Positions 5,695 through 56,365 of a stretch of DNA of 64,000 nucleotides are shown here, piece by piece. The notes below the pieces were generated by a model, which ran no database searches, had not been told where the DNA came from, and was given only the letters and a program-made list of their open reading frames with translations. The stretch is from a bacterium (GTDB taxonomy: Bacteria > Hinthialibacterota > Hinthialibacteria > Hinthialibacterales > Hinthialibacteraceae), in assembly GCA_016125385.1 (NCBI GenBank), contig WGLV01000002.1:1-64000 (forward strand), given 5' to 3'. Within the stretch, counting starts at the first letter, position 1. Every line of letters starts with the position of its first letter. A program made the translations under genes and the position numbers.

Positions 5695-5924
5695 TGGCGA
5701 AGGTCAGACTGAAAAAAGGCGACACCGTCGAAGTCATCACGGGTGATGACCGGGGCAAGACCGGTAAAGTTCTGGAATTCAATCAGAAAAAAGACCGCGT
5801 CTACGTCCAGGGCGTCAACATGAGAAAAAAACACCGCCGGGCCAACCCCCAGGCCAACCAACCGGGCGGGATTATCGAAGCCGAAGGACCGATTCATCCT
5901 TCGAACGTACGACTGGTGAAGTAG
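5694..5924 (+). CDS. rplX: 50S ribosomal protein L24
   Basis: 76 residues, at the short end for L24 (often about 100). The KOW motif is clear: [20 protein letters not shown] near the N-terminus, followed by VNMRKKHRR and the ending [10 protein letters not shown]24 initiates 50S assembly. The protein stops just after this conserved core, so only the variable C-terminal extension found in other bacteria is missing. Ends in TAG. Confidence 0.96.
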
Positions 5925-6548: not shown

Positions 6549-6734
6549 ATGGCGAAGAAAAGCATGGTTATTCGAGCGAATCGGACCCCGAAGTTTTCGG
6601 TTCGCCAGGTGAATCGCTGCCAACGGTGCGGCCGTCCGCGCAGCTACTATCGCAGATTCAAATTGTGCCGCGTCTGCCTGCGCGAACTCGCGCTGCAAGG
6701 GTTCATCCCCGGCATGACCAAATCAAGCTGGTAG
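6549..6734 (+). CDS. rpsN: 30S ribosomal protein S14, zinc-binding type
   Basis: 61 residues, the short zinc form (type Z). The zinc ligands are Cys24, Cys27, Cys40 and Cys43 in [14 protein letters not shown] ... LCRVCLREL. It ends [11 protein letters not shown], the usual C-terminus. S14 joins S3 and S10 in the head of the 30S subunit. Start follows GGGAGAG; rplE lies 11 bases upstream and rpsH 48 bases downstream. Confidence 0.97.
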
Positions 6735-24216: not shown

Positions 24217-24954
24217 TCACACAGTGTACAGAATTCGCCGCAAAGATTCCAGAATCGCCGGTTTGATCGGGCCCCATGATTTGGCGCGTTCAGACCAGTG
24301 GCGTTGATTGATCTCCAACTCCACGCCGAGATATACGGCCTGCGAGAAACGGGTGCGCAGCCAGGTGGTAAACCCATCGGACGCGCCTTTGTAAGGCCGG
24401 TTGCAATGGATCGCGATTCGTGGCAGTAAATCTGAACACTCGCGTTTCCAGCGGCGGCACAAATCCTGCTCCAATGGTCTCGCGGGATCGTACAACAGCC
24501 CAATGCCGGTTGGACGTTCGACGCCGTTGAGTATCGGCGTGAAGGTATGGACCGCGAGATGGAACACCCGTTCACCGCGTTCGATTCTATCGCGTATCTC
24601 TTGTTCCACAACACCACGATGTGACGCGTAATAGTGTTCGAGGAGATGGTTTTTGTCATCCACAGGCAAAAACCGGGTGAACTCGGAAAACAGGCGAGGG
24701 TGATGTGGAGAACGATTGCAATCGATTACCAGACGGCTGATGAGAGTGTATCGCAGCGGGGCGTTGAAATCCGCCTCGATGGCTTGCGCCATGTTCAACG
24801 CGCCGACGTCAAATCCGCGATGCGTTCGCAGGATCGCCGTGGCGGCGCTCAAATCTTCTTTGCAGCATTCGGGAATCTCCGCTCCGGCGTGTTCGCACGT
24901 GAGATAAAGAGACAGCCCCGCGCTCAACGGAAAAGCCGCCCCTGAGCGAGGCAT
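24217..24954 (-). CDS. N-formylglutamate amidohydrolase-like enzyme
   Basis: 245 residues from ATG 24954 (a GTG two codons earlier is possible). The FGase fold signatures are present: SLYLTCEHAGAEIPECC near the N-terminus, RTHRGFDVGALNMAQAI, RLVIDCNRSPHHPRLFS, FHLAVHTFTPILNG and YLGVELEINQRHW at the end. His and Glu in these runs are the expected zinc ligands. Family members hydrolyse N-acyl-glutamate or related amide bonds. It overlaps the GCS2 stop by about 31 bases and is the fourth gene of the amidoligase cluster, where it may hydrolyse or recycle the ligated product. Confidence 0.88.
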   Translation of the reverse strand: MPRSGAAFPLSAGLSLYLTCEHAGAEIPECCKEDLSAATAILRTHRGFDVGALNMAQAIEADFNAPLRYTLISRLVIDCNRSPHHPRLFSEFTRFLPVDDKNHLLEHYYASHRGVVEQEIRDRIERGERVFHLAVHTFTPILNGVERPTGIGLLYDPARPLEQDLCRRWKRECSDLLPRIAIHCNRPYKGASDGFTTWLRTRFSQAVYLGVELEINQRHWSERAKSWGPIKPAILESLRRILYTV

Positions 24955-26168
24955 TCGCACAATTCCGCATAGATAAAATGCAGGCTGTCTACGTCGAGGC
25001 CTTCAGTTAAACGGTTAAGAATGCGAGTCGAGAGCGAGCCGTGTTCGAGTATCCATTCCAGCGCGGCGCAAGCTTTGGCGTCACGCTGTTTGAATTCATG
25101 GCCAAGTTCAGCGAACAGATGTTTCCACACGCCGCCCGCGAGAACCGGATCCTCTGATTCAATGCCCAGAAGGCGCAGGTAATCGCGATCGGCGACCGGG
25201 GCGCATTCGGCTTTTTCGATACATTGAAGGAAGATCGTTTCCAGCGGTTCGGTTTTGACGTTTTTCTGTTCGGCGAACGGCGTCCAGCGCTCTTTGACCA
25301 GCGCCTTTAATGCGGCGTCGATCAGCATTAACACGCCCAGGTCGGCGCTGGGGCATTCCTGAATATCGAGCACGCGAATCTCGATCGAGCCCCGGTCGAA
25401 TCGCGCGATGGCGCCGCGCGAGTTGAGCCATTCATGACGCAGGATGCCCTGCGGATCGAGAGGCGCGATGTCGCGGTACATGGGATCAAAGATGCGTTCC
25501 TTGTATTCGCGGTGCGTGAATACCGCTTCGGGAATGACCCGGCCCGTCACCGAGGGGACGCGTTCGGAATTGGTCCGGTAATACGCCATGCGCGCGTCGA
25601 GCCAGTTCGCGCGGCGGCCATCGACCAGTGGGCTGCTGGCCGCCAGAGCGGGCAATAACGGCATGAGGATGCGAATCGCCGCATGCAGCCGCCCGAACTC
25701 TTCATCGCTGGAAAAGGGCAGATTCAGATGAACGCTTTGCAGGTTCGACCAGCCGTGCCCGCCGCAGCCGAAGATGCGATCGTAACTTTCGTACACGGGG
25801 TTGAATTCATGCGGCCAGAGCTGCGTTTCCTGATCGGGGTTCATCCAGGGGTGCATGGCGGTGGGCATGAGCCGGGCGCCGAATTCTTCAAGACGCCGAT
25901 CCAGGTCTTCAATCTGCGACTGGAACAAGCCCGCCAGCCCCGCCAGACCGGGAGCCGGCCCGTTGGTTTTGAGTTCGATCACATGGTTAACGAGCTCGTT
26001 GGACCAGGAAATCTAGCCGCGCTCGATCTCCGATTCATACGAACCGGCCACGGAATGAATCAACCTGTCGCAGAGCGGCGCGACGTTGAGCGTCGAACGA
26101 TTCACGATCATGTATTCCAGTTCGACGCCGTATGCGCTGAAGAGGGCGCGTGACGTTTGAGAAGACAT
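24924..26168 (-). pseudogene. GCS2-type carboxylate-amine ligase, interrupted by in-frame TAG
   Basis: From ATG at 26168 (three bases after the RimK stop) the frame reads SRALFSAYGVELEYMIVNRS and continues to SYESEIERG, then meets TAG at codon 52 (26013-26015). After the stop the same frame carries on as ISWSNELVNHVIELKTNGPA to the end at 24924. The pieces match the GCS2 family, GVELEYMIV before the break and HVIELKTNGPAP, WSNLQSVHLNLPF and SIEIRVLDIQECPSADLG after it. The enzyme would join an amine to a carboxylate using ATP. A GTG (25982) inside the helix could restart only a truncated protein without the first Glu-binding strand. Decay, sequencing error and read-through cannot be separated here. 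Confidence 0.8.
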
Positions 26169-26170
26169 GG

Positions 26171-27628
26171 TTAGCGGGCTTTCCGTTTTTCAATTCGTTC
26201 GACAAAGACGGAGATGATCTGGTCGTAGAGCGCGTCTTTCAGCTTCGCGTCTTCAAAACCGGCGTCGATGCTGGGATTGTCGTTGATTTCTATGACGTAC
26301 ACTTTATCGCCGATTTGTTTCAAGTCGACGCCGTATAGCCCATCGCCGATCAGGTTGGCGGCGCGCAGAGCGGTTTTGACGACCGCGGGGGGCGACTCTT
26401 CGACTAGATACGAGGCCACGTCACCGTAGCGCGTTTCGCCATTCATCTCATTCTTCTGAATCTGCCAGTGATCGGAGGCCATGAAATACTTGCAGACGTA
26501 GATCGGCTTGCGATTCAACACCCCCACCCGCCAGTCAAAAGGCGTGGGGGTGTATTCCTGAGCGATGATGAGATCGGAATCATCAAGCAGCCGCTCGATG
26601 ATACGATGCAGGCTGTCGGGATCTTCCGCTTTGAATACGCCCTGTGAAAACGAACTGTCGGGCATTTTTAAAATGCAGGGCAAACCGATGGTCTGTTGAA
26701 CCTGCGTCTTGTTATCGCGATGAACGATCATGGTACGGGGATGCGATATGCGGTGACGGCTGAGCAGCTCCGCGAGGAAAACCTTATTGGTGCATAGCTG
26801 GATGGACGCCGGATCGTCGATTACGACAAGCCCTTCGGCGGCGGCGCGGCGAGAAAAGCGGTAGGTATGATGATCGACGTTGGTGGTCTCGCGGATAAAC
26901 AGCGCGTCGAATTCGGGGATCGAGCCATAGTCGTCCTTGTCGATAAATTCCACGCCCAGGTCGGCTCGTTTGGCTGCTCTGGCGAAATTTTTTAACGCGC
27001 GATCGTTGGAGGGCGGGTTTTCTTCATCATCGCTGACCAGGATCGCGAGATCGTAACGAGGGATCTTCCGCCGGGGCGCGCGCGGCGCGGATGCGAAAAA
27101 TTCCTCCGCCGCCTGCGTGACGAAGCCGTAATGCTCCTGAACCACTTCCTTGATGGTGATAGGGTAGATTCTGTGCAGAGCCCAATGGTTATCGAGATAA
27201 CGGAACTCGGCGCGAAGCAAGGGCGATTGAAACAGGCGTGAGAGCTGGTCAGCTAGGCGTTCATACCGCTTCGCCATGTTTCGTCCGAAATAAATGCTGA
27301 GGGTGAAACGATCGGATTGCAGCGGTTTGAGGCTGCGCTGAATCAGTTCGTCAAGATCGTCGGAGATCAGCCGCAGAATCGAAAGCGACTTCATGTCCTG
27401 AATCGTTTCGATGCTGGGGATGGGGCGATGATCGCGGGCGGCCGCCAGCAGGGAGACGTAATACCCCAGGCTCTGATAGCGGTAACTGCTGCACAGGTTG
27501 AATACTTTTACGCCGCGCTGATCGCTGAATTTGGGGTCGGAAAGATAGTGACGGGCCGAGACGACCTCCGCGCCCGTATGAGTGAACGGCCAGCGTTTTG
27601 GATTGTTCACGACGATGAGGTTCGGCAT
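26171..27628 (-). CDS. RimK-type ATP-grasp ligase with RLAN N-terminal domain
   Basis: 485 residues. The first ~180 residues (NLIVVNNPKRWPFTHTGAEV, VFNLCSSYRYQSLGYYVSLL, then IQDMKSLSILRLISDDLDEL) match the RLAN domain that precedes some ATP-grasp enzymes. A pre-ATP-grasp segment (RYDLAILVSDDEENPPSND) follows. The ATP-grasp fold spans about 285-470 with CILKMPDSSFSQGVFK, IAQEYTPTPFDWRVGVLN and the metal-binding VIEINDNPSIDAG near 447. RimK enzymes add amino acids to a carboxyl group using ATP. Close packing (3 bases to GCS2, 9 from the C39 gene) indicates a single transcript. Confidence 0.9.
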   Translation of the reverse strand: MPNLIVVNNPKRWPFTHTGAEVVSARHYLSDPKFSDQRGVKVFNLCSSYRYQSLGYYVSLLAAARDHRPIPSIETIQDMKSLSILRLISDDLDELIQRSLKPLQSDRFTLSIYFGRNMAKRYERLADQLSRLFQSPLLRAEFRYLDNHWALHRIYPITIKEVVQEHYGFVTQAAEEFFASAPRAPRRKIPRYDLAILVSDDEENPPSNDRALKNFARAAKRADLGVEFIDKDDYGSIPEFDALFIRETTNVDHHTYRFSRRAAAEGLVVIDDPASIQLCTNKVFLAELLSRHRISHPRTMIVHRDNKTQVQQTIGLPCILKMPDSSFSQGVFKAEDPDSLHRIIERLLDDSDLIIAQEYTPTPFDWRVGVLNRKPIYVCKYFMASDHWQIQKNEMNGETRYGDVASYLVEESPPAVVKTALRAANLIGDGLYGVDLKQIGDKVYVIEINDNPSIDAGFEDAKLKDALYDQIISVFVERIEKRKAR

Positions 27629-27637
27629 GGCGAATGA

Positions 27638-28369
27638 CTACTCGCTCCTCCGGGGTTCGATCAGAAGAAGGTTGGCGTCATCGGTGAGGACGCCCAGCAG
27701 AATCGACGAGATCAGCCGGTCCAGATTGACTTCGTAGTAATGGTTTTCTTTCAACGGATTCGGATACAGTGGATCGGCCACCCGTACAGTGCGATGATCG
27801 CGGTTGTATCCGCATAATACCACGAAATGCCCGCAAGGCGTTCCTCGAATGTCATCGTAATCACAGTTCGGGCCGATTTCACGCGAGCTGTGATAGAGAT
27901 AGGTGGCGCTGAGTCCGGTCAGAATGGGTGTGTCTTTTTTCAGATGTTTCTGGATGAGCCGGTGCGTCAGCTCGGCGAAGCGCAACTCTCCACCTAATTC
28001 AAAGAATTCAAGATAATTCTGGCTGATCAGTTGGATCCGCGGGCTGGTTTTGTGTTTCATCTGTTCGATGAGTTTGTCACGGATCTGGCCGGTTTTCAGC
28101 CCGAACCAGGTTGGGTCGAAAACGTCGAGGTTGTATGAATAGATCGTTGCGTGGTAGCCCCGTTTTAATGCGTGACAGGCGAGGATCACCGCCAGCGTTC
28201 CGCCGGTGAGCAATTGGGGAATTCCGGTGATGACGGTTTCGAGCGGCAGGACGTCGTTGTAATACTGGTACACCGCCTGAAGACAGGTGGGGCCGCAGGT
28301 GAAATAATCGGGCTGCGGCATGATGGAAAAATGAATTTTTTTCTCGACGGGGTCGGCGGTGTTGGTCAT
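27638..28369 (-). CDS. C39-like cysteine peptidase of the amidoligase cluster
   Basis: 243 residues. Papain-like catalytic set: Cys25 in PQPDYFTCGPTCLQAVY, His181 in GTPCGHFVVLCGYNRD and Asp199 in VRVADPLYPN, in the order Cys-His-Asp of the C39 family. No signal peptide or membrane segment, so unlike bacteriocin exporters it is a free cytosolic enzyme. The domain also contains SYNLDVFDPTWFGLK and TGLSATYLYHSSRE. In this neighbourhood it is thought to cleave or transfer a peptide product. First gene of the cluster; ten bases before RimK. Confidence 0.85.
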   Translation of the reverse strand: MTNTADPVEKKIHFSIMPQPDYFTCGPTCLQAVYQYYNDVLPLETVITGIPQLLTGGTLAVILACHALKRGYHATIYSYNLDVFDPTWFGLKTGQIRDKLIEQMKHKTSPRIQLISQNYLEFFELGGELRFAELTHRLIQKHLKKDTPILTGLSATYLYHSSREIGPNCDYDDIRGTPCGHFVVLCGYNRDHRTVRVADPLYPNPLKENHYYEVNLDRLISSILLGVLTDDANLLLIEPRRSE

Positions 28370-28490: not shown

Positions 28491-29879
28491 TTATTGCATT
28501 AGCTGGAGAGGGGGCCATTTCACGCCGCTTTCAAAACTGTCCCATATCTGGTTGTATCGCCAGTCCCACAGACGCCCCTTGTCTTCCGACAGGCTGACGG
28601 GATACACCGCCCAACGGCCGGGGTAACAGAACGCGCCGATCCACTGTACCCAGATGGAAAACGCCAGCAACAGAGCGAACAGCACGGTCAGCGCCCGCCG
28701 GCGGGAGATCGACGGCCACGCGGCGGCGAGGAACAGAATAAGAAATGGATACACATCGACCTGATACCGTGGGCCGTAGTGCATGATTCCACCCCACCAG
28801 ACGATATATTTCGCCAGCAGGACGAATAGAATAACCGGAATGGAGCCCGTCAGAGCGAAAAAACGACGGTAGGGATCATCCGACCGCCAGGCGGCGTACA
28901 TTCCCCAAATGGAGAACAGCAGAATCGGACTGAAGACGAAAACGCCCCGGCTGGGGCTGAACAGCACCCCCGCCAGCCCTTCCCACAGCGGCGTCGACCA
29001 AACCCCGCCGCGCACCCGGTCGAGATACCAGCGATCTTCCAGCACCAGCGCCAGCCCGCCGTTCCAGGTGGAGAACATCCACTCGTTATAGGCGGCCAGC
29101 GCCGCGATGAGCGCCAACGCGGGGATCGCGTACCACACCGAACGCCAACGGAAACGAACCAGCAGCGCGAGGCCGTATAACCCGGCCGCGACCAGATGAA
29201 TGATCCGGCACAAGACCGTACAACCCGCCGCGGCGCCGGCCAGCGCCAGCCAGCGATTGGCGCGGGGAGAACCGTCTTCTTCCAGAGCGCGGACGGTGGC
29301 GTAAAAACACACGCTCCACCAGAAGACGGCGCCGGTATGCTGCCAGATGCTCTGCGAGGCGATCGGCCATAACGCCGTGCCGAACGCGTAAGCGTAAGAG
29401 ACGGTTAGCGCTCCGGTTTTCGAAAGGAAGCGCTTCAGCGTCAGAAACGTAAAAAGTACGGTCAGCGCGCAGTAGGTGGAGGCGGTGATCTTGCTGATGT
29501 AATCCCACACCAGGTTGCCGTCGCCGGGTTGAATCATGCCCGACCAGACGAAGGGGGCGTAAAACGGAAACGCCATCAGACCGGGGAAGATCGGATAGTT
29601 GGAGACGATGTGGCCGTTACGCTCCGACAAAAAATACGGCAAGTCGTTATAGGGGAGAAAATCATGCAACTGATCCATGTACACCGTGCCGGAACGCGCC
29701 AGCAGAATCGCGGCGAATTTGGCGCCGGTGGTGTCTCCACTGCTCAATTCTCTGAAGTTAGACATATAAACCAGAAACGGGATAAAGCAGAGAAGCAACT
29801 TACGCCGGTCAAAAATTTCACCCGGACGGGAGCAAAAAGAAGGTGATTCGGAGTGTGATTGAGCCGACTTGATTTTCAT
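28491..29879 (-). CDS. Multi-pass membrane protein, GT39/GT87-like glycosyltransferase candidate
   Basis: 462 residues from ATG 29879; the in-frame sequence further upstream lies in the divergent control region and reads as low-complexity. About ten hydrophobic segments are visible, e.g. LLLCFIPFLVYMSNF at the start, ASTYCALTVLFTFLTL, PILLFSIWGMYAAW and RALTVLFALLLAFSIWVQWI. The short external loop after TM1 contains SSGDTTGAKFAAILLARSGT, where many polyprenyl-phosphate-sugar transferases keep an acidic residue. No family-defining motif was recognised; a lipid-linked glycosyltransferase is a guess. Its own 3' end is 121 bases upstream of the C39 gene. Confidence 0.55.
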   Translation of the reverse strand: MKIKSAQSHSESPSFCSRPGEIFDRRKLLLCFIPFLVYMSNFRELSSGDTTGAKFAAILLARSGTVYMDQLHDFLPYNDLPYFLSERNGHIVSNYPIFPGLMAFPFYAPFVWSGMIQPGDGNLVWDYISKITASTYCALTVLFTFLTLKRFLSKTGALTVSYAYAFGTALWPIASQSIWQHTGAVFWWSVCFYATVRALEEDGSPRANRWLALAGAAAGCTVLCRIIHLVAAGLYGLALLVRFRWRSVWYAIPALALIAALAAYNEWMFSTWNGGLALVLEDRWYLDRVRGGVWSTPLWEGLAGVLFSPSRGVFVFSPILLFSIWGMYAAWRSDDPYRRFFALTGSIPVILFVLLAKYIVWWGGIMHYGPRYQVDVYPFLILFLAAAWPSISRRRALTVLFALLLAFSIWVQWIGAFCYPGRWAVYPVSLSEDKGRLWDWRYNQIWDSFESGVKWPPLQLMQ

Positions 29880-30021
29880 TTTTGAAAGAATCCGATATAC
29901 TATAATTACCAGTAACCATGATGATCCGTTCCATATCATCATCAAGTCAGCTGATTGAACAACTTCAACGATAATTAGGGTAGAGCCTCTGATGAGGCGC
30001 ACTTTGAAAGGAGTGATTTTG

Positions 30022-30348
30022 ATGAAAATCACCAATTTCGCAATCGTGTTAGCCGTTGGAATTTCTCTGGTCCTGATGGGCTGCACCTCGTCGCCCACGC
30101 AGACCGGCGCCTTGGGCGGCGCGGCGGTGGGCGGTCTGGCGGGGCAGTTGATCGGTGGAAATACCACGTCGACTCTGCTGGGCGCCGGCGCCGGCGCGGT
30201 TGGCGGCGCGCTTCTGAACGATCATATCGACCGGCAGAAGCGTGAATCCTACAATCAGGGCTATAACCAGGGTTACAACCAGGGCAGCGCCAATTCGAAC
30301 AGCTCGACGTCGCAGAGCCAGCCGAATTACAACTCGGCGCCTCGCTGA
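30022..30348 (+). CDS. Glycine-zipper lipoprotein
   Basis: 108 residues from ATG 30022, with AAAGGAG nine bases upstream. Lipoprotein signal: KITNFAIVLAVGISLVLMGC, lipobox LMGC at Cys21. The mature part opens with a glycine zipper (GALGGAAVGGLAGQLIGG and LLGAGAGAVGGALLNDH) typical of SlyB/OmpA-like and YMGG-type lipoproteins. Then comes a charged stretch and three repeats of YNQG (SYNQGYNQGYNQGSANS) with an Asn/Ser-rich C-terminus. It probably associates with the outer membrane. The next gene downstream is a paralogue, separated by a terminator. Confidence 0.8.
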   Translation: MKITNFAIVLAVGISLVLMGCTSSPTQTGALGGAAVGGLAGQLIGGNTTSTLLGAGAGAVGGALLNDHIDRQKRESYNQGYNQGYNQGSANSNSSTSQSQPNYNSAPR

Positions 30349-30999: not shown

Positions 31000-33900
31000 T
31001 CAGTCGACGATCATGTCCTGCGGCGGCGAGATCGATTTGACCTCGGGGTTGTAATACTCATACACGCTCGACGCGGGCGCCTTGGCCACCACTGGAAGAG
31101 TGGCCTTCATCGGCACGTCGATCTTCAGCGTTTCGCCGCCTTTCATCGATTCGATGTAGATCAACACCTGCCGGGCGGTGGCGCTGTACTTTGCGATGGT
31201 CCCCTTGTCGACGTATTCATCCAGCTGGGGGCGCTCGACCTGGAACCCGGGCGGGACGCCGACGTCGATCATCACCATTTGAGCCTGCTCGGGCCGGTTG
31301 TTGGTGGCGGAGACGTGGCAGGTGACGCGGTCGTTGCGGCGCAGTTCGGTGCGGTCGTATTCGACCTGAATGTCGAAGGCTTTGTTGATTAATTGACTCG
31401 TCTGAATGGCCGAACCCGAGACGGGGCCGTGCAGCGGAACGATCCCGCCAAAGCCTTCGAAATACTTGCCGACGATCTGGTACATCATCGAGCCTTCACC
31501 GTTCATGGTCAGCTCGACCTTGTTTTCGCCCTCGTTAAGAAAACGGGTGGCGTCGATCTGGTGGAATACGTCGGCGTTATCGGGCGTGATTTCAATGCGC
31601 CCCGCCTCGCGTCCATTGACGGCGACCACGGCGGTTCCATCGCCCAGGCTGGTGCGGGCGCCGAGTGAGCCGATCAGCGCCTTGAGCGCGAGTACGGTTC
31701 CATGCGTGGTCGACCAGGCCCCGTTGGGCGATTTGACCGAGATCAGCCAGTTGAGCGTGCGGGAGAGTTCGGCGGGGTAGCGGCCGCTTTCGATGGCGGC
31801 CAGCGCCGCCCAGGCGGTGACCTCGACCCAGGCGTGTTCGCCGCGCGCGAAGCTCATGCTGGCGTCGCACTTCCAGTACTGCTTGTCGTTTTCCACGACC
31901 GCCATATCTATCAGGCGCCTCATGGCTTCAAGCGTGACAGGATTTTTCGGCGCGAGTTTCAACAGCGCATTGCACAAGATGGAAAGCGTGTAGGCGTCGT
32001 CCGCGCTTCGGGCGTGGTCGAGCAGGTACTGGGTGGTGGTTGAAAGCTCGCCGGCGCCGGCGTTAGCCAGCGCGAGGGCGATGTACGCCGTGACCAGCGT
32101 TTTGTTATCCTGAATCGATTTCCACATTTCGGCGTGGGCGTAATTGGAATCGGGTTCCCACGAGCCGTCGGCGTTGCGCTGGCCCATCAGCCAGTTTTTC
32201 GTCCGGGCGAGCACGTTTTCGTCGATGGGGTAGACTTCGTTCATGTCGCCGAATTCCATCAGCCCGTAGGCGGAAAGCACGCGGGTGGCGGGCGCCTGAC
32301 CGAAGACGGAGAAGCCGCCGCCGGGAATCTCAAAAGTCAGCAGGCGCTGGTAACCCAGGTTGATATATTCGCGCGCCTTCATTTCGATGGCGGGGGTGAT
32401 GCGTTCGCTGTCGCGCATGTAGCGCATCGCGAGAATGTTGGGATAGGTGGTTGAACTGGTTTGTTCGAAACAGCCGTAGGGCATCTGCAACAGGGCGTCC
32501 ATACCCTCGACCACCTGACTGAAAATGCCGGGATAGATTTTGACCCAAAGCCGATCGGCGCCCTGCAGGCGGTTGGGGGGCAGGGAAAAGCGTTCTTCCA
32601 CTGCGCTTTCCAGCCGTCCGTTGAAATTCACGAAGCGGGGTTCGCCGTTGGGGCGTACCTCAATGGTCCGGGAGATGGCGTCGGCGTCTTCCGAACCCCA
32701 GGCGAAGACGGTGAGCGGTTTGTCGCCCAACTGGCTGGCCTGAATGCGGTATGAAACCGAGGTGACCTCGTGAGCGGCGACTTTAACGTCTCGTTTCAGA
32801 TCCCCTTCCAGCAAATCGAACCAGCCCGCCTTTTCGAGCGAGACTTCGACTTCCTGCGGTTTGTCGAGGTAGTTGTACACCGCCACCGGGATGGTGACCT
32901 CATCGCCCCGGGTGAGAAACACCGGCAGGTCGAGATCGATGAAGAACGGCTTGAAGACCTTCATCGCGGCGGTGGCGTCGCCCAGCGCGCCGCTTTTGGC
33001 GTTGGCCATCGCCGACAGACGCCAGGTGGTGATGGAATCGGCCATCGGCAGATTGAGTTGGGCCTCGCCGCGTTCGTCGGTGATCAACTCGGGCGTGTAG
33101 TACAGCGTTTCGGGGAAATAACGCCGCACCCGCACCGCGCGCTCGGCGGGTTTGACGCTGGCTGAGGCGTCTGACAGTTCGCTGAACTTTTCCCGCAGGC
33201 TGGCGAGCGTCTGCTGGACGGTCTGGTCGAGTTGGCCGCCGTGTTTTTCGAGGGCTTTTTCCGCCGCCGCCTGAAGCGCTTTTTCATTGACCACGCCGCC
33301 GGCGTAGAGCGGGCCCAGGTTTTCATCCTGAAGGCCCATTTCCTGCTGAAACTCGCCCCACAGCGCTTCGCTGCGCTCACCCAGTGAATCGGTCGCGGAA
33401 ACGATAAACGAGAACAGATCGTTCATCCCCGCCGCGGGTAATGCGGCGTCATCTTGCGGCTTCAGCAGGTCGAAGGGGACCTCTTTTTGCAGCGATTGAT
33501 AGATAGGATCGGCTTCCGGCCGATTCGCCTTGTCTTCGCTCTGAGCGGAGTAATCGTAATAGACGGACTTGTCTTGATTATCCGCTTGAGCGATGGCGGC
33601 CGATGTGGCGAGGTTGGAGACGCCGTCATTGTTGATATCTCCGTTTGAGGGATGGACCGCGCCAAAACGGTCCTGTACCATGATGCCGTCCGCATCATCG
33701 CCCGGCTCAAACCCCCATTGAGAATCCTGAGGTTGGGCGCCGCCTTCCGCGCCAATGCCGGTATCCTGCACGTTGGAAGAAACGCCGGGAGGGCCGTCCA
33801 AAGCCATTATGCCAGGTTGTTGTTTTACCAATTTATAATTGATGGCGGGAGCGTCCGGCGCCGCTGCCATATCAAGTCGATCGATCCCACGCATTCCATA

Positions 33901-36633
33901 GCCCCCAAAGCCTCCGCCTTGTAGCTGCACGGCGCCCGGTTCAATTCCCTTCGCCAGGGCGGGTTCCCGGCCCAGCGCTTCTCTCTCTTCCAAAATGATC
34001 GCCCCTTCGTCCAAAAGGCGTTCCTGAACGGCTCCTCCACGTCGAAGCATCAGTAGCCGCTCTCCACCCCTCCCCAATCCCAGCACTCTCATGCGGGGGA
34101 GGATGCTTTGCAGCGTTTGCGTTTCATCATCCTGTGTATCGGCCAGTTCATCTGGGCCGACGCTGGCCAGGCTTAGTTCACCACCGGATGTACGGTAGAT
34201 CGCATACGGGCGTCCCCACGGGTCTTTCAGCGGAAGATCGTTAAGGTCGCCGTCCAGCCGAAGCAGCGCTTCACCCGCCGTCATGGGATGGTCAAAGAAG
34301 TTTTCACCGCGTGGGTTGCTCCCATCGGGCTGTAATCCCAATTCAGCCATTTTCTGTCCCAGCGCCTGAAGGTCGGTTTGCACCCGCCGGCGTTTTTCAA
34401 CGCCGGTGTCGACGATCATCCTGGATGAATCCGGGTTGTCGAGACGTGAAAGAAGCGCCTTGGCGAGCGAGTCTTCTTTCTCCAGCGGCATCGGTGACAA
34501 GGAAATCGCCTTGTCGAGTTTGTAGCCATGAATTTCCACTTTGGGCTGGAGCAGTTCGCGCTCGATAGCGAAGAAAACCTTCGCCAGCCCCAGTTCTTTT
34601 TCGGAGAGGCTGTAGACGCTTTCATCGACGATGTTCATGCCAAGAGCCGCCTGCACCGGTTGGCCGGCGGAGTCGCGCACCGCGATCTTGAGCCGAGCGG
34701 GCTGCCCGGGGGCGTATTGGTCGAGGTCGGGCGTGATTTCGATGCGCAGGTCGTCGGAGCGAAGCGCGATGACGCGCCGGTTGTCGCTAACCATATTGCC
34801 GTCGCTTCTGATGCGATACGCATTAAGTTCAATTGTCCCGGATAGATCATGCGTGATCGGCTGCTTGATTTGGGCTCGCCCGTTTTCAGGACGCAAGGTA
34901 TGCGTTAACTGGGTCTGACCGTCTTTGATGATATCGAGATAAACGGCTTCGCCTTTTTGATTCGGCGAAAAGACATTTACCGTCATCACGTCGCCAACCC
35001 GATACACAGCCTTATCTGGACGAAGAAGGAGAGAATCTTCGGTTGCGGTGACGGGGACCTCTTTATTGAGCGAGATGGTTTTTCCATCCAGATTGGCTTC
35101 GATAGTGAGCGCGACCGGTTCTTTCTCTTTTGGAGTGACATATAGAACCGCGATTCCATCATCATTGCATTTTACTTTGATATCTTGCTTTAAGGCGCTT
35201 GATTTAATGCTCAGGCTCGGCTTGGCGACGCTTCCGTCGGGATAGGAAGCGACCAGATAAACCTCGTTCTCGACGCCCGCCGTCAGGACGCCGCTTTCAG
35301 GAATCAGGTCAACTTCCAGCGGATCGGACGCGGCGTGGAAGGTATGAATCTTCTGTTCTTCATGATCCGCCGAATCGCGTACCCGTGTGTCGAGCTGAAT
35401 CAGGGCGTTTCCTTTGAACAACGGTTGACCCACCAACCGGTCCGGCAAGACAAATGAGAATTCAAACTTGCCTTCGTTATTGGTTTTACCATCAACGGTT
35501 ACAAATTCATTAAAGCCAATATCGAAGCAATTAGCCACGATCTTGACCGCCGCCCCGTCCACCGGCTTGCCGAAGAAATAACGCGATTCCAAGCTGCCTT
35601 TCACGGTTTCTCCGGGGGCATAGAACGAACGCTCGGTTTTGACGTCGACCCGAAACTTGGGCAGGACGTATTCATACACCTGAACGCCTTTTTCAAACTC
35701 CGTTTCTCCGCTGATGGCTTTGACAAGGTAATCGCCTTGATTGACTTCGTCAGCCAGTTGAAAATCGGCGGAGACGACTCCGAATTCGGAGGCTTTTTCA
35801 TTCTGTTTGAAGACTTTGTTACCGCGACCGTCGTAGACTTCAAGCGTGACCGTTCTACCGGCAAGCGGTTTGTTGCTCATCTGATGAGCGATCAGCCCAC
35901 GGATATGGATGGTCTGGCGAGGCTGATAAACAGGTTTGTCGGTGGTAAGAAAAATTTTGACGCCGGGTTTCACGGTGACGCGGGATTCGAGCGAGTTATC
36001 ACCCAGCTTCGATCGAACATGAAGGCTGAGTACGTATTCGCCGTTAAGGCCGTCCAGCCGATTGAAGACGAGTTCGGCCGCGCCGCCGGAGTCGGTTCGA
36101 GCCTCGACCCGAATGACGGCCTCGCCGCCCCGGGCGAGTTCCGCGCTGACTTCAGCCCCTTCAATCGGGGCTCCATCCCGTCCGTTGGTGACGATCGCGC
36201 GGACAACGCTTCTGCCGCCCTCAATCCACTCTGTCTGACCGACCAGTTGAATCTCCTGACTGTCTTGCTCTGTGCCGAGAGGCTTGAGCCACACCTGACC
36301 CATCAGGTCGATGCGCAGGGTGCATTGATCCAGCGCGGGTGCGTTGGATGCGATGGGCAATGCGATCTCCTCGACGCCTTTTCCATTGAGAATGACGATT
36401 TTTTTCTCGAGCTTGGAGATCGGCTGATACCCGCCGTCGAGCAGCGTCGCCTTCAGGTCTTCAATTCGCCGTCCGGTCTCACTGAACTGAAACGGGAGTG
36501 TGATCGCCACCGATTCGGCGTGACGAACGGCGGTGACGCCGTTGCGGTCGAGCGTTATATCGGCGGACGCGCCCAGCGCGCCTATCGCGATGAGAAAGTA
36601 ATAAAGTAACAGGGTTTGAAATCGTTTTTTCAT
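31000..36633 (-). CDS. Bacterial alpha-2-macroglobulin family protein
   Basis: 1877 residues. Signal peptide FQTLLLYYFLIAIGALGASA. Several MG (macroglobulin) beta domains follow, e.g. VKIFLTTDKPVYQPRQTIHI near 225 (MG2) and FRVDVKTERSFYAPGETVKG near 330. The bait-like region (about 700-1100) is long and loop-rich and contains a DPWGRPYAIYR motif near 803. Then the A2M domain (ELITDERGEAQLNLPMADSI), the thioester site CFEQ at 1388-1391 within PYGCFEQTSSTTYPN, an alpha/alpha thioester domain and the C-terminal receptor-like domain. The protein traps proteases that attack the periplasm or cell surface. It follows the anti-sigma gene by 24 bases. Confidence 0.93.
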   Translation of the reverse strand: MKKRFQTLLLYYFLIAIGALGASADITLDRNGVTAVRHAESVAITLPFQFSETGRRIEDLKATLLDGGYQPISKLEKKIVILNGKGVEEIALPIASNAPALDQCTLRIDLMGQVWLKPLGTEQDSQEIQLVGQTEWIEGGRSVVRAIVTNGRDGAPIEGAEVSAELARGGEAVIRVEARTDSGGAAELVFNRLDGLNGEYVLSLHVRSKLGDNSLESRVTVKPGVKIFLTTDKPVYQPRQTIHIRGLIAHQMSNKPLAGRTVTLEVYDGRGNKVFKQNEKASEFGVVSADFQLADEVNQGDYLVKAISGETEFEKGVQVYEYVLPKFRVDVKTERSFYAPGETVKGSLESRYFFGKPVDGAAVKIVANCFDIGFNEFVTVDGKTNNEGKFEFSFVLPDRLVGQPLFKGNALIQLDTRVRDSADHEEQKIHTFHAASDPLEVDLIPESGVLTAGVENEVYLVASYPDGSVAKPSLSIKSSALKQDIKVKCNDDGIAVLYVTPKEKEPVALTIEANLDGKTISLNKEVPVTATEDSLLLRPDKAVYRVGDVMTVNVFSPNQKGEAVYLDIIKDGQTQLTHTLRPENGRAQIKQPITHDLSGTIELNAYRIRSDGNMVSDNRRVIALRSDDLRIEITPDLDQYAPGQPARLKIAVRDSAGQPVQAALGMNIVDESVYSLSEKELGLAKVFFAIERELLQPKVEIHGYKLDKAISLSPMPLEKEDSLAKALLSRLDNPDSSRMIVDTGVEKRRRVQTDLQALGQKMAELGLQPDGSNPRGENFFDHPMTAGEALLRLDGDLNDLPLKDPWGRPYAIYRTSGGELSLASVGPDELADTQDDETQTLQSILPRMRVLGLGRGGERLLMLRRGGAVQERLLDEGAIILEEREALGREPALAKGIEPGAVQLQGGGFGGYGMRGIDRLDMAAAPDAPAINYKLVKQQPGIMALDGPPGVSSNVQDTGIGAEGGAQPQDSQWGFEPGDDADGIMVQDRFGAVHPSNGDINNDGVSNLATSAAIAQADNQDKSVYYDYSAQSEDKANRPEADPIYQSLQKEVPFDLLKPQDDAALPAAGMNDLFSFIVSATDSLGERSEALWGEFQQEMGLQDENLGPLYAGGVVNEKALQAAAEKALEKHGGQLDQTVQQTLASLREKFSELSDASASVKPAERAVRVRRYFPETLYYTPELITDERGEAQLNLPMADSITTWRLSAMANAKSGALGDATAAMKVFKPFFIDLDLPVFLTRGDEVTIPVAVYNYLDKPQEVEVSLEKAGWFDLLEGDLKRDVKVAAHEVTSVSYRIQASQLGDKPLTVFAWGSEDADAISRTIEVRPNGEPRFVNFNGRLESAVEERFSLPPNRLQGADRLWVKIYPGIFSQVVEGMDALLQMPYGCFEQTSSTTYPNILAMRYMRDSERITPAIEMKAREYINLGYQRLLTFEIPGGGFSVFGQAPATRVLSAYGLMEFGDMNEVYPIDENVLARTKNWLMGQRNADGSWEPDSNYAHAEMWKSIQDNKTLVTAYIALALANAGAGELSTTTQYLLDHARSADDAYTLSILCNALLKLAPKNPVTLEAMRRLIDMAVVENDKQYWKCDASMSFARGEHAWVEVTAWAALAAIESGRYPAELSRTLNWLISVKSPNGAWSTTHGTVLALKALIGSLGARTSLGDGTAVVAVNGREAGRIEITPDNADVFHQIDATRFLNEGENKVELTMNGEGSMMYQIVGKYFEGFGGIVPLHGPVSGSAIQTSQLINKAFDIQVEYDRTELRRNDRVTCHVSATNNRPEQAQMVMIDVGVPPGFQVERPQLDEYVDKGTIAKYSATARQVLIYIESMKGGETLKIDVPMKATLPVVAKAPASSVYEYYNPEVKSISPPQDMIVD

Positions 36634-36657: not shown

Positions 36658-38289
36658 TTAGCGGCGTTCGACCGGCGCCGGCCGCGTGGAACGGGCGCTC
36701 GCGTTCTCATGCGGCTCGGTCGAACAGGTCAGATCGGGGATCGGATTTAAATCGGTATCGAGAACTGAAACCAGAAAGATCGCGTCTTCGGGATTCGAGG
36801 TGGAGAAAAAGACCTTGAATGTAATCTGGTTCCAGCCTTCTTCCAGCGGGACCTTGCAATACGACTGATTGAGCCTCAGCAATTCCCGAGGATCGATCAA
36901 GGATGGATTGCGCTGGCGGGACCGGATTTCCCCGTTGATGTACAGGTAGTACACCGCCTGCGTGTTCGCGGATATGACCACCATGCGGGGATGAGGCGTG
37001 TACACGGAAGTGGACAGCCAGCCGGTCCAGCCTTTCCCGTCGGGGATTCGCGCGCCTTTTAATGGAAGCAGGCGGCCCTCATCAAGCGCGACCGGACGCC
37101 ACGCGACGGACTGGCCGTTCAGCCCTCTCATTTTCGAGTTGGAACCGGCGAGCGGTAATTCGCCGAAACCCATCGCGAAATCGGGGAAGGGGCCAATGAA
37201 CAACCAGTCATGAATGGCGTCACGATCCCGCAAAGCCCGGCGGATATCATCGGCGATATGCTGGGCTTTCTGGTGAAACACGTGATCGCCGGGCCAGGCG
37301 GCGAGCACGGCGCGCGTCCATTCCAGCGCCTGTTCGGGCTCCGCGTTCTGAACTCGCCCGGCGGCGCTCAACGCCAGCGTGGCGAATTGTTCAGACGAAC
37401 CGTCACTGGCGTTTAAGTCATTAATAACGCCCGCGATGCCGCCGAAATACTTTTCGTCGGACATCATCAGTTCGGCGAGAGAATAGCGCGCCTGCTGAGC
37501 GGTAATTTCGGAATCGGGAAACCGGGCGATCAACTCGCGATAGGTCTCAATGGCGTCTCCTGTACGGTCGAGCGCGCGGTATGAGTCGGCCATCAGCGTC
37601 ATCGCCAGCGCCGCCCATTCTTTTTCGCCGGGACACTGCTTGACCACGTCCGATAACAATAGCAGTGCGCTTTCCAGCAGGGTTTTTCTTTCACCGCCGA
37701 CCTTGGTAAACGCCTGGTTGTAGACGCTGAGTCCGGTTCGGAACAGGCTTTCGGCCTGAGCGGCGGACGCATCGATTTCCGCCGAGCCGCCGTGCGACGC
37801 TGCTATCAATGCGGGTTCGGGCGCGTCATTCATTGAAAGCAGGCCGGTTACGGAATTTACCGCGACGGCTTCGCGTATGGGTTTCACTTTCCGGCTTACC
37901 GATTCGCGCAAGGTGATATCCGGCGCGGGCGCGTTCATCACGATGGCGGAGCCGTCTACGCCGGTTTTGGGCGTTGGATTCAGCAGGGCGACGGCGGCGG
38001 ATACGCTCGCCAACATCAGCACCGCCGCCGCAGCCAGCCAGCGCGCCGGAAAAATGGTACGGCGGGCGAGATCACGCCGAGCTTCATCATGTATCGCGTC
38101 GGGATCGGGCGCGGCTTGGCCTGAATCGTGAAGCGAGCGCATCCACTCACGCGCCTGGAGCAGTTCAGACCATTCACGCGCTAGCGCGTCATCGGCGCTT
38201 AACTGTTCTTCGAGCCGGAGATCGTCTTCAGGCGAGATTTCGCCGTAGAGCCGCTCGATCATCCACTGACGGATTTGTTCTTCATTCAT
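36658..38289 (-). CDS. Membrane anti-sigma factor with TPR-like periplasmic part
   Basis: 543 residues. The N-terminus (EEQIRQWMIERLYGEISPED, DLRLEEQLSADDALAREW) resembles anti-sigma domains but lacks the HxxxCxxC zinc motif. One membrane helix sits near 83-106 (RWLAAAAVLMLASVSAAVAL). Outside, helical repeats (about 185-340) include ALAMTLMADSYRALDRTGDA and RYSLAELMMSDEKYFG, and the last ~180 residues form a beta-rich domain with YYLYINGEIRSRQRNPSLID. The gene overlaps the ECF sigma gene by four bases, which strongly supports a sigma/anti-sigma pair. The outer part may sense envelope stress or proteolysis. Confidence 0.75.
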   Translation of the reverse strand: MNEEQIRQWMIERLYGEISPEDDLRLEEQLSADDALAREWSELLQAREWMRSLHDSGQAAPDPDAIHDEARRDLARRTIFPARWLAAAAVLMLASVSAAVALLNPTPKTGVDGSAIVMNAPAPDITLRESVSRKVKPIREAVAVNSVTGLLSMNDAPEPALIAASHGGSAEIDASAAQAESLFRTGLSVYNQAFTKVGGERKTLLESALLLLSDVVKQCPGEKEWAALAMTLMADSYRALDRTGDAIETYRELIARFPDSEITAQQARYSLAELMMSDEKYFGGIAGVINDLNASDGSSEQFATLALSAAGRVQNAEPEQALEWTRAVLAAWPGDHVFHQKAQHIADDIRRALRDRDAIHDWLFIGPFPDFAMGFGELPLAGSNSKMRGLNGQSVAWRPVALDEGRLLPLKGARIPDGKGWTGWLSTSVYTPHPRMVVISANTQAVYYLYINGEIRSRQRNPSLIDPRELLRLNQSYCKVPLEEGWNQITFKVFFSTSNPEDAIFLVSVLDTDLNPIPDLTCSTEPHENASARSTRPAPVERR

Positions 38290-38897
38290 GGCGTGATTCC
38301 ATCCTGAATCAATCGGCGCCGGACCGCGCTCAATGCGTAATGCAACCGGCTTTTGACGGTATTGGCCGGGCAGCCGAGCAGAGCGCCGATTTCATCAAAA
38401 GTCATGTCGGTATTTTCACGTAACATCAACGCTTCGCGTTGTTCGTCGGGCAGTGAATGAACCGCGTGGAGAATCCGCTCGCGCATGAAAGACTCATGAG
38501 CGGCGTCGCGCGGCGTTGAACCGGCGCAGGCGGCCAGTGAGATCACTGTGTCGCCGTCCGTGGGTTGAATCAGGTTGGCCTGTGTTTTCGCTTTTCTCAT
38601 GGCATCGATGCACGCGGAGCGCGTAATAGCGTAAAGCCAGGTTGTGAAGCGGGCGGTCTCCCGATACCGCTTCCGGTTGCGAATTAAGCGAATGAAGACG
38701 TCCTGAAACAGGTCGTCCCACTGGTCGCGATGGGGGGTGAATCCCTGAATAAAGGCGTACACCGAACCGCGATGACGCTCAAAGAGCGTATCGAAGGCTT
38801 GAGCGTCGCCCTGGGCGTAGCGCGTCATCAGCGCTTCATCGCCGAGGGCGTTCGGAGTGGGTTCAGGAGCTATCGGCCTCATCGCGATCGCGTTCAT
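38286..38897 (-). CDS. ECF-type RNA polymerase sigma factor
   Basis: 203 residues. Sigma region 2 is seen in LFERHRGSVYAFIQGFTPHR and DLFQDVFIRLIRNRKRYRET, then ARFTTWLYAITRSACIDAMR. Region 4 is LPDEQREALMLRENTDMTFD followed by EIGALLGCPANTVKSRLHYA. No region 1.1 or 3, so it is a group 4 (ECF) sigma factor. It overlaps its anti-sigma partner by four bases (ATGA) and is followed by the macroglobulin, so it probably controls protease defence. Its own promoter recognition sequence could not be defined. Confidence 0.92.
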   Translation of the reverse strand: MNAIAMRPIAPEPTPNALGDEALMTRYAQGDAQAFDTLFERHRGSVYAFIQGFTPHRDQWDDLFQDVFIRLIRNRKRYRETARFTTWLYAITRSACIDAMRKAKTQANLIQPTDGDTVISLAACAGSTPRDAAHESFMRERILHAVHSLPDEQREALMLRENTDMTFDEIGALLGCPANTVKSRLHYALSAVRRRLIQDGITP

Positions 38898-39954: not shown

Positions 39955-41403
39955 ATGAAGCGTCTTCTCAGCATGGGGGCGATGGCGTTTTTCGCCATCT
40001 GGGCAGGGTGCGTCTGGGCGCAACAAATCGATCTGATTTATCCCGCCGAAGGTGAGGAAATTACGGTCGAGGATCTAGTGGACAAGGGGCTGCAATGGAG
40101 TGGGGCAACCGGCGCCACTGAATTTAAAATCTATTGGCAGGCGGACGTTTTCGTTCAGTTGCAAGGTCCCTTTACAGCGACAAGCTCACCTTATAAGTTC
40201 CCTGCGTTTTCCAAGACAAGTATTTTACCGGGGAACTATACGTGGCACGTCGAAGTCACGGGTGGAACCGGAATTGGAACCAGTTCCGCCGCGCTCCATT
40301 TTACCGTGGTCAGCGTTGGAGAGGGACTGATTCCAACGCCGACGCCGGCGAATCCTGCTCCGACGCCGACGCCTTCCGGCAATCTGGACGGATCCGGTCA
40401 GATCAGCGGAAAAGATACGCTCTTTTTCGCGAGCAAATGGGGGACCTATAACGACGCTAAACGATATGGATACGACCTCAACTATGACGGCTGGGTCAAT
40501 CAACTCGACTTGTTGACCTTGATGAGCCGCAACGGTCAGATCGTGCCCACGCCGACGCCGACGCCTCCCGCCGGGCTGGTACAGAATATTCGGCTGATTC
40601 CGGGGGCTCAGGTAGGGCGCGCCGAAACGGTTGGTTTTGAAATTCAGTGGGACCCGCCTTCGTATCCGAGCGGCGATGCGTTTACTTATGACGTGTACGT
40701 CGAGACCAACACCATTCAGAAAATCGAATTTCGCGGCCTTACGGCGACTTCAATCAAACCGTTTATGAATTATCCCAACGGGTGGACGCAGACAGGCGCA
40801 CAGACCGCGTACATTCGCGCGAAAGATTCGCTGGGGCGTCCAGGGCCGATCGCGGTGGTTCCTTTTGAAGTTGTGTTTGGAAACACGCAGACTCCGACTC
40901 CAACCCCGCTGCCGGTGGTGGATGAAAACCTGCCCGCGCCTGTCTGGAACCAGGCGGATGTGCCCACCATGATGCTGGCCACTTCACCGTTTACCTACTG
41001 CTATGAGTCAGCGCGTGAAACCGTGACGCTGGAACCGGATTCACCTGTGTTGAATTATGATGGAACCAGCAATCTGTGCGCATACAGCCAGGTGGTTGGC
41101 GGCGTGTACGTCGACGATCAGGGAGAGCCTGATTTTTCCAAACTGTCGACCGGGACGATTTTTGAATTTCTGCCGGTGGATGGTGCGTCGTCATACAAGG
41201 TTCAACTGAGATATATTCGTAACGGTTCTGATCCCAAGGTGATCAAAAGCGCGGTTATCAATTTCAAAACGGCGACGAGTTTCACCACGTCGCTGTCGCG
41301 CGATCCGGGGGAGACGATTTACCTGTTTGAAGTGCAGGGCGTGATGCCGGATGGCCGTTTGACTCCATTCAGTGTTCCGTTACAACTCACGTTGAAAATC
41401 TGA
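39955..41403 (+). CDS. Secreted dockerin-like multi-domain protein
   Basis: 482 residues. Signal peptide LLSMGAMAFFAIWAGCVWAQ; AAGGAG precedes the ATG. A fibronectin-III-like beta domain (about 24-122) is followed by PTPTP linkers (about 127-140 and 197-205). Between the linkers, 143-193 contains two dockerin-type calcium loops, NLDGSGQISGKDTLFFASKW and YDLNYDGWVNQLDLLTLMSR. Two further beta domains follow after a third linker near 315 (TPTPTPLPVVDE). No cohesin was recognised in the window, so the dockerin part may simply stabilise the domain. Located directly 5' of waaF. Confidence 0.75.
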   Translation: MKRLLSMGAMAFFAIWAGCVWAQQIDLIYPAEGEEITVEDLVDKGLQWSGATGATEFKIYWQADVFVQLQGPFTATSSPYKFPAFSKTSILPGNYTWHVEVTGGTGIGTSSAALHFTVVSVGEGLIPTPTPANPAPTPTPSGNLDGSGQISGKDTLFFASKWGTYNDAKRYGYDLNYDGWVNQLDLLTLMSRNGQIVPTPTPTPPAGLVQNIRLIPGAQVGRAETVGFEIQWDPPSYPSGDAFTYDVYVETNTIQKIEFRGLTATSIKPFMNYPNGWTQTGAQTAYIRAKDSLGRPGPIAVVPFEVVFGNTQTPTPTPLPVVDENLPAPVWNQADVPTMMLATSPFTYCYESARETVTLEPDSPVLNYDGTSNLCAYSQVVGGVYVDDQGEPDFSKLSTGTIFEFLPVDGASSYKVQLRYIRNGSDPKVIKSAVINFKTATSFTTSLSRDPGETIYLFEVQGVMPDGRLTPFSVPLQLTLKI

Positions 41404-46331: not shown

Positions 46332-47537
46332 TCAGACTCCCCCGTATGTCGTACACCATTCATCGTACAAATCGTTCAGCGTCGATTCAATGATCCGGTC
46401 TGAGACCGGTTTTTCGAGGTATATCTTGATTGGCGCAACGAGCGCTTCTCTGACCAGTGGTTCCAGGTAAGGTGGACCGATCACAATAATGAATGGTGCG
46501 CGTCTGATCCGTGATTCGTCGTAACTTTGGTTGAATTTAACCAGGTCTTCACACTCTTCCGCCTCAAAATCAATAATCAGAAAGCTGGAGCGTTGTTTAA
46601 TAATGTAGTATCCAGCGTCCTGAACCTTGGTCAGCGCTTCGTAACGCAACTGTAACGCCTGCAAGGGAGCGATGAGCCGGTGAATGCGAGAGAGATTGCC
46701 CGCCGCGATCAGTGCGGGGCCCATTTCAGCCGGTTCGTCCGGCTCAAGCGTCTCCAAGCCGGGTGATTGGTTTTGTTGAGGCTTCGAGCCGGGAGGAGAA
46801 TCGAACTCATTCGCGGGTTCGCCCCGCGACGGTTCAGATAGATCATCCAGCTCGAATTGAGCGTGAACGGCGGCCATGCGCTCGTGATTCAGAAGCAGGG
46901 GCGAGACGTTGTTTTGAGCGGAAAAGGTTTTTTTACCAATGATACAGGTTACGTCAACGCCGTTCCGTTCCATCTGCTGCAGCGCCGAGCGGATCAGGGT
47001 GACCACCGTGGCCGCCATGCTTTCCACGTTGTGAAGGGTGATCAGCAACTCGCGCATGGAACTCCCGTGGTTGCGCAGGACGGATTGAAGCAACGCGCCC
47101 GATTCCAGATCAAGCCGGCCGATAACCCGAATCACGCCATACTCACCCGTGAACAGCGTCATGATTTCCGCGTCGCCGCGATACCAGCGCCGGTATTCAG
47201 GCCGAGGGGTTTCGTCCTGAATAAATTGGACGCCGACGCTGTCGATCGATTCCCGGCGCACGATGATTCCAGTTCGCATCAGGGGATGCTCTTTGAGTTG
47301 TTTGACGCTGGTGATCAGTTTTGCGCTGTCTTTATCGATTAAGGGGATGATGTGTATGGTGTCTTTGACGTTGGGCAGGCTGGATGTTCTCAGCAACAGG
47401 CCGGTCGCGCTCTCGTTCGCGATGGTTCCCCGGCTGAGTACGCGCGTATTGGCCCTGCACCATAAACAGGGTTCGTTCGTAGAGCGGCGTTCTTCACGCG
47501 TTACGGGGGAGGATGCGCCCGGAGGCTTTCTCAACAT
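46332..47537 (-). CDS. PilZ-like / STAS-like / receiver-like signalling protein
   Basis: 401 residues. The first ~115 (RRSTNEPCLWCRANTRVLSR, then GTIANESATGLLLRTSSL and SVGVQFIQDE) have the shape of a PilZ domain, with the RxxxR and xSxGG-like turns weakened. A STAS-like part follows (FTGEYGVIRVIGRLDLESGA, then LLITLHNVESMAATVVTLIR). After a Pro/Gln linker, the last ~120 residues (SSFLIIDFEAEECEDL, then APFIIVIGPPYLEPL and APIKIYLEKPVSDRIIE) resemble a receiver domain: the LEKP motif and order fit, but the usual phospho-Asp is replaced. Such fusions integrate c-di-GMP or partner switching. No membrane segment. Confidence 0.5.
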   Translation of the reverse strand: MLRKPPGASSPVTREERRSTNEPCLWCRANTRVLSRGTIANESATGLLLRTSSLPNVKDTIHIIPLIDKDSAKLITSVKQLKEHPLMRTGIIVRRESIDSVGVQFIQDETPRPEYRRWYRGDAEIMTLFTGEYGVIRVIGRLDLESGALLQSVLRNHGSSMRELLITLHNVESMAATVVTLIRSALQQMERNGVDVTCIIGKKTFSAQNNVSPLLLNHERMAAVHAQFELDDLSEPSRGEPANEFDSPPGSKPQQNQSPGLETLEPDEPAEMGPALIAAGNLSRIHRLIAPLQALQLRYEALTKVQDAGYYIIKQRSSFLIIDFEAEECEDLVKFNQSYDESRIRRAPFIIVIGPPYLEPLVREALVAPIKIYLEKPVSDRIIESTLNDLYDEWCTTYGGV

Positions 47538-54676: not shown

Positions 54677-56365
54677 ATGAAATTTCAAACTACGGGCATG
54701 GTGTGCCTGTTTGTCATCTTTTTTTCAACATCCATTGGCGCGCAGGAGACGATGTTCGTCGACCGAAGCGTCGAGAGCGGATTGCAGGGCGATCTGATCT
54801 ACCGTCAATTGGGGGTTTCGTGGGCCGATGTCAATAATGACGGCTTACAGGATGTGTTCATCGCGACCTACCCGATTAACCAGTTGTTCATCAACCAGGG
54901 TGGCAACGTGTTCAGTGATGAGGCCGAATTGTACGGAGTCGACGATCCCCAGGCGGAAGCCGCGTGCGGCGTCTGGGGCGATTATGACGGCGACGGCGAT
55001 CTCGATCTTTTCGTCGGTAATCTATCGATGGTTGCTCCAGAAGACGGCGCAGCGATGACGCCGTTCGGCAACCGCCTGTATCGAAACGACGGCGCGAAAT
55101 TCACCGACGTGGCGGCGGTGGCGGGAGTATCGGGAATTCCCGAGGGCGTAACCGGTGGGACGACGAGTTGTTCATGGGCCGATTACGACGGCGATGGATG
55201 GCTCGATCTGCTGGTATGCAACCGCCTGTTCGGCGTGTTTCTCTATCACAATCAGGGCGATGGAACTTTCGTGGAACGGGCGCAGGCGGTTGGGCTGCGA
55301 AGCATGCCGATGTGGATGAGTTATGAACACGGCGCGTGGTGCGATTATGACCGCGACGGCGACGAAGACCTGTTTCTCTGCGCGGGAGAACCGGTGATGA
55401 TGAACATGGACAGCGGCTCCACAACCGGGATGTCAACGCCGATGCAGATGGCGGGTTCGCCCTCTTCCAATCGACTTTATCAGAACCAGGGAGATGGAAC
55501 CTTCATTAACGTAACGGAGAGCGCCGGACTGGTGTATGAAACAAACATGGCGCGAACACACACGGCGGTGTGGGGCGACTATAACAATGACGGCTGGCCC
55601 GATCTGTTTTCCGGAAACCGGGGGTCGATCACGATGAACACCGTCGCTAACAGCCGGCTTTATCTCAATCGCGGCGATGGAACTTTTGTCGATCAGAGTG
55701 AACAGGTGGGTATTGTCGATGAGTTCTCCGTCTTCGGCGCCGATTGGGCCGACGTTGACAACAACGGCTGGCTCGATCTGTACATCGCCATTCATCCCGA
55801 TATGCGCGATTATCCCGATCATCACATCAATCCGACGCGTATTCCACATCCTCTGTATATGGCGCGTGATGGCGGCGTGTTTGAAAACGTGGACGCTGAA
55901 CTCGCCGACTTGCCGTTCGTATCGGGCATCACCGATCTGGGGCATCAGGGCGGCGCGGTCTTCGCCGACTCTGACAACGACGGCGATCTCGATCTCGTCG
56001 TGGTGGAAGCGATGGGGCTGGGGCCGATGCGCTTTTACGAAAACACAAACGCGGCGGCGGGCGCTCACTGGATCGAGGTCGAATTGCACGCTCTCTCACC
56101 CAACGTCTTCGCGGTGGGAGCCAAAATCATTGTGACCACCGAATCGGGGATTCAGTACCGCGAAGTAGGCTCGGGCGCCGCCGGCTGGGGATCGCAGGCG
56201 CCGTTCGCACAGCACTTCGGGCTTGGTGATTCCGCTTCGGCTCAAGTTAAGGTGATCTGGCCCAATGGCGATGAGACCGATCTGGGGGTGCTTGAAGCGG
56301 ATCAGAAGCACGCTGCGTCTCAAGCGGCTCCGTCTTCATCTCACTGGGCGCTTTACCTGAATTGA
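54677..56365 (+). CDS. FG-GAP repeat / ASPIC-UnbV secreted protein
   Basis: 562 residues. Signal peptide CLFVIFFSTSIGA. Seven to eight FG-GAP/VCBS repeats with calcium loops, e.g. WADVNNDGLQDVFIA, WGDYDGDGDLDLFVG, WADYDGDGWLDLLVC, WGDYNNDGWPDLFSG and FADSDNDGDLDLVVV, give a beta-propeller. The ASPIC/UnbV domain follows (HWIEVELHALSPNVFAVGAK, then GSGAAGWGSQAPFAQHFGLG and KVIWPNGDETDLGVL). Surface or secreted location is expected. The stop overlaps the next ATG by one base (TGATG), so it is coupled to a pseudopilin. Function unknown; adhesion or sugar binding is a guess. Confidence 0.9.
   Translation: MKFQTTGMVCLFVIFFSTSIGAQETMFVDRSVESGLQGDLIYRQLGVSWADVNNDGLQDVFIATYPINQLFINQGGNVFSDEAELYGVDDPQAEAACGVWGDYDGDGDLDLFVGNLSMVAPEDGAAMTPFGNRLYRNDGAKFTDVAAVAGVSGIPEGVTGGTTSCSWADYDGDGWLDLLVCNRLFGVFLYHNQGDGTFVERAQAVGLRSMPMWMSYEHGAWCDYDRDGDEDLFLCAGEPVMMNMDSGSTTGMSTPMQMAGSPSSNRLYQNQGDGTFINVTESAGLVYETNMARTHTAVWGDYNNDGWPDLFSGNRGSITMNTVANSRLYLNRGDGTFVDQSEQVGIVDEFSVFGADWADVDNNGWLDLYIAIHPDMRDYPDHHINPTRIPHPLYMARDGGVFENVDAELADLPFVSGITDLGHQGGAVFADSDNDGDLDLVVVEAMGLGPMRFYENTNAAAGAHWIEVELHALSPNVFAVGAKIIVTTESGIQYREVGSGAAGWGSQAPFAQHFGLGDSASAQVKVIWPNGDETDLGVLEADQKHAASQAAPSSSHWALYLN

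Follow-up and report, generated by a model that had tools for sequence, protein, structure and literature searches.

A GCS2-family gene in the window (the whole analysed stretch of DNA, 64,000 nucleotides long) is interrupted by an in-frame TAG at codon 52, and the interruption was probably caused by a recent single-base nonsense mutation in the sampled strain, with no further decay since then. When the minus strand is read from ATG 26168, the TAG occupies positions 26015–26013 and the frame is otherwise open down to TGA 24926–24924. This was first described in an earlier note on this DNA, and the minus-strand reading and the Pfam match agreed with it. The gene and its stop are located as follows:

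24924–26168, minus strand: GCS2-family (YbdK/glutamate-cysteine-ligase-like) gene, 414 codons, PF04107
26013–26015, minus strand: premature TAG, codon 52 of this gene; none of the 84 relatives has it

A whole-genome Pfam search was performed on the 5.53-Mb draft (77 contigs, completeness 95.8%). The locus matched PF04107 (GCS2) with 109.9 bits against a gathering score of 21, and one TAG was located inside the match; the part after the TAG alone gave 106.2 bits. This locus was the sole GCS2 match in the genome, and no second GCS2 gene that might have replaced it was found in the search. Modeling of the product using AlphaFold led to a model with a pLDDT of 90. A Foldseek search assigned to it the glutamine-synthetase-like ligase fold that YbdK shares with plant glutamate-cysteine ligase (GCL), with E values of 6e-13 to 1r8g and 8e-12 to 2gwc; the top solved-fold matches were YbdK (1r8g/1tt4) and plant GCL (2gwc) with TM scores of 0.6–0.7 by query length. 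The protein was not attributed to any named NCBIfam family (the best score was 52.4 against a cut-off of 176.4 bits for TIGR02050).

To evaluate the TAG, the gene was compared with 84 relatives covering the site, namely four loci from related genomes (49–56% identity) and 80 loci from a wider contig scan (49–60%). The gene is present in the same-family genomes G001, G002 and G004 (in G002 only in part, at the end of a contig) and in two genomes of the same class, G010 and G012. The titles of the records that hold the wider loci include Verrucomicrobia, Planctomycetota, Hydrogenedentota, Desulfobulbaceae and Bacteroidota genera, among others. At the DNA level, the closest long match was 67–68% identical. 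Both flanks of the TAG align with the four related-genome loci and the 80 wider loci, in agreement with the earlier note. All 84 relatives carry a sense codon at the site, which supports the single-base change that had been proposed as the cause, and none contains a stop within the GCS2 gene. Note that a single stop symbol in one locus (L115) is the second aligned residue, at the edge of the match, and was taken to lie before the start of that gene. Column 52 holds 14 kinds of residue among the relatives (P, E, A, G, D, S, R, V, K, T, Q, N, L and I) and ranks 20 of 414 by entropy, among the most variable columns. In the predicted structure (pLDDT 90), codon 52 is placed in a hairpin turn between strands 47–50 and 53–56. 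The variability of the column and the predicted turn indicate that no special residue is needed at this position.

The state of the gene allows the age of the lesion to be bounded. Of the 89 columns with at least 95% conservation among relatives, it retains 88, and no second lesion was found. In a neutral simulation, more than 91% of runs at 1% substitutions per site broke at least one of the 88 columns or gained a stop, and at 1.5% substitutions per site 97% of runs lost a kept column or gained a stop. Thus, any loss is recent, corresponding to less than about 1–1.5% neutral change, as the earlier note had argued from the intact operon. A disabling lesion, an intact gene in relatives and little further decay are together what is found in a recent pseudogene. 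The lesion is therefore either recent or absent from the organism altogether.

The main rival explanation, less probable than the mutation, is that the TAG arose through an error of consensus calling or assembly, or that the contig took up a minor allele from a mixed population, and that the GCS2 gene of the organism is intact. A wrong base call would yield an identical sequence, the TAG being known from one assembled genome whose closest comparisons belong to the same family. The absence of a second lesion fits a sequence error as well as a recent mutation. This explanation is favoured by the state of the genome as a 77-contig draft, by a single one-base lesion in an otherwise well-conserved gene and by intact neighbouring genes. 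However, a coding-potential scan of the 264-kb contig, a method of limited sensitivity that the GCS2 gene itself passed only narrowly, revealed no other visibly split gene. The scan reported five stops with a coding signal on both sides, including the GCS2 TAG. Judged only by inspection of the translations, three of the four other candidates read as joins of different genes, and the fourth (69725) reads as the end of a gene followed by probably non-coding sequence. In addition, genome-wide, no internal stop was found in 63 ABC_tran and 73 GFO_IDH_MocA matches (136 in total). These two results indicate that the assembly is not generally error-rich.

As the earlier note had stated, TAG is an ordinary stop here. 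It terminates 20 of the 174 long non-overlapping ORFs on the 264-kb contig (TAA terminates 75 and TGA 79), and the stop positions of the four genes that had been named, tuf (138–140), rplC (1233–1235), rplX (5922–5924) and rpsN (6732–6734), were confirmed. The gene encoding RF1 is intact (528 bits). A reassignment of TAG from stop to sense in this organism is scarcely credible: apart from the one in-frame TAG nothing points to it, and it is effectively refuted by the terminal-stop counts, which include several ribosomal protein genes, by the retention of RF1 and by the family matches, none of which contains an internal TAG. A new reading of the genetic code at the GCS2 TAG is not likely.

Read-through at a useful rate, by a near-cognate or natural suppressor tRNA or as a programmed event, would yield the full-length enzyme; any residue inserted at codon 52 would be tolerated, the turn there being variable, and the frame after the TAG is intact. 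Despite this, read-through is very unlikely. A tRNA with the anticodon CUA was not found among 46 ARAGORN-typed genes (44 Rfam places), in a draft of 95.8% completeness from which a few tRNA genes appear to be missing (tRNA-Ile(GAU) and tRNA-Ala(UGC) were not seen). The best PylS profile match in the genome scored 29.7 bits against a cut-off of 178.15 bits, and this candidate, a 501-aa ORF, reads by inspection as a class II lysyl-tRNA synthetase. RF1 is present, a stop is kept at the site in 0 of the 84 relatives and the RNA fold downstream of the TAG is not unusual (z = -0.99). On these grounds, decoding by pyrrolysine or a suppressor tRNA was rejected, and the read-through listed among the possible causes in the earlier note, together with the CUA tRNA or pyl genes on which it might depend, gained no support. 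It is also highly improbable that the TAG is genuine and has been retained as a regulatory stop, tuning the dosage of the ligase in this species through low-rate read-through, for example by a tRNA whose gene is missing from the draft.

If the TAG base is true in the organism, as we infer under the nonsense mutation, RF1 would terminate translation at codon 52 and release a 51-residue peptide without a domain; this peptide alone has no Pfam match. The predicted products are as follows:

26016–26168, minus strand: 51-residue product if the TAG terminates, with only the invariant L9 F10 G14 E16 E18 region
24924–25982, minus strand: 352-aa product of the earliest restart available past the TAG (GTG, codon 63)

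The restart product does not contain the invariant N-terminal region L9–V22 (E16, E18; the GVELEYM strand). The acidic residues of this GCS2-type strand presumably have a role in metal/ATP binding. Restarts at GTG codon 63 or later would be without this strand, and enzyme activity would be lost or nearly so. It is unlikely that a start past the TAG gives a shorter gene that still functions, because 12 of the columns with at least 95% conservation among relatives would be lost, E16 and E18 among them. Note that an automatic gene caller would report a 352-aa GCS2 protein from GTG 25982 without the conserved N-terminus, and such an annotation should be treated with caution.

The GCS2 gene belongs to a conserved set of four genes (window 24217–28369, minus strand), namely a C39-like peptidase, an RLAN/RimK ATP-grasp ligase, GCS2 and an N-formylglutamate amidohydrolase-like gene (FGase). 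The other members are located as follows:

27638–28369, minus strand: C39-like peptidase, intact, first of the conserved set (PF13529, 33.6 bits)
26171–27628, minus strand: RLAN and RimK-like ATP-grasp ligase, intact (PF14401, 158.9 bits; PF08443, 43.8 bits)
24217–24927, minus strand: FGase (PF05013, 59 bits)

The intact peptidase and ligase genes bear out the earlier remark that the rest of the operon appears undamaged. The ATP-grasp ligase has 63–67% identity with its counterparts in G001 and G004. The C39-like peptidase gene was found in 65 of the 84 relative loci (in 64 of them upstream on the same strand), and in 53 loci an FGase match follows GCS2 on the same strand. All four genes in this order and strand were present in 45 loci and the first three in 19 more, counts that are affected by the many loci ending at contig ends. 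A possible FGase start, TTG 24927–24925, overlaps the GCS2 stop, so FGase is probably translationally coupled to GCS2. Through polarity, the TAG would then probably reduce translation of the overlapping FGase gene, which is plausible.

Two genomes of the same family with an estimated completeness of 98%, G003 and G005, contain neither GCS2 nor the ATP-grasp gene. Thus, the GCS2 gene can be lost, and the operon is dispensable in the family. The enzymes of the operon score far under every NCBIfam cut-off, its product is probably a peptide or an amide-modified metabolite, and none of the papers covered by a literature search was found to name the four-gene combination. The meaning of the TAG itself is small, being that of another single-lesion pseudogene or of a base error in a draft genome; the uncharacterised ligase/peptidase operon, spread over many phyla, is more deserving of attention.

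Elsewhere in the window, a gene at 31000–36633 (minus strand) encodes a 1877-aa alpha-2-macroglobulin-like protein with MG2, a bait region, A2M, a thioester domain and a receptor-binding domain. Genes encoding a TPR protein (36658–38289) and an ECF sigma factor (38286–38897) are located near it. An FG-GAP repeat protein with an UnbV/ASPIC domain is encoded at 54677–56365 (plus strand). Three putative ORFs, 28491–30167 (558 aa), 39955–41403 (482 aa) and 46332–47537 (401 aa), had no Pfam match at E 0.001.

A comparison with known systems indicated that the in-frame UAG within an enzyme gene resembles pyrrolysine decoding of UAG; unlike in that system, PylS over the cut-off and a CUA tRNA were not found here, and the UAG is not conserved in relatives. 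YbdK (PDB 1r8g, 1tt4) and plant glutamate-cysteine ligase (2gwc) share with the GCS2 protein a PF04107 match over the cut-off and the fold. However, the protein is only 14–16% identical to them and is far under every NCBIfam equivalog cut-off, and, unlike theirs, its gene sits with those of an RLAN/RimK ATP-grasp ligase, a C39-like peptidase and FGase. With respect to an ordinary bacterial nonsense pseudogene, the case differs in that the TAG, seen in the assembled sequence of one genome, may or may not be fixed in the species; the two are alike in a single stop within a conserved frame, a dispensable accessory operon and a genome without recoding machinery.
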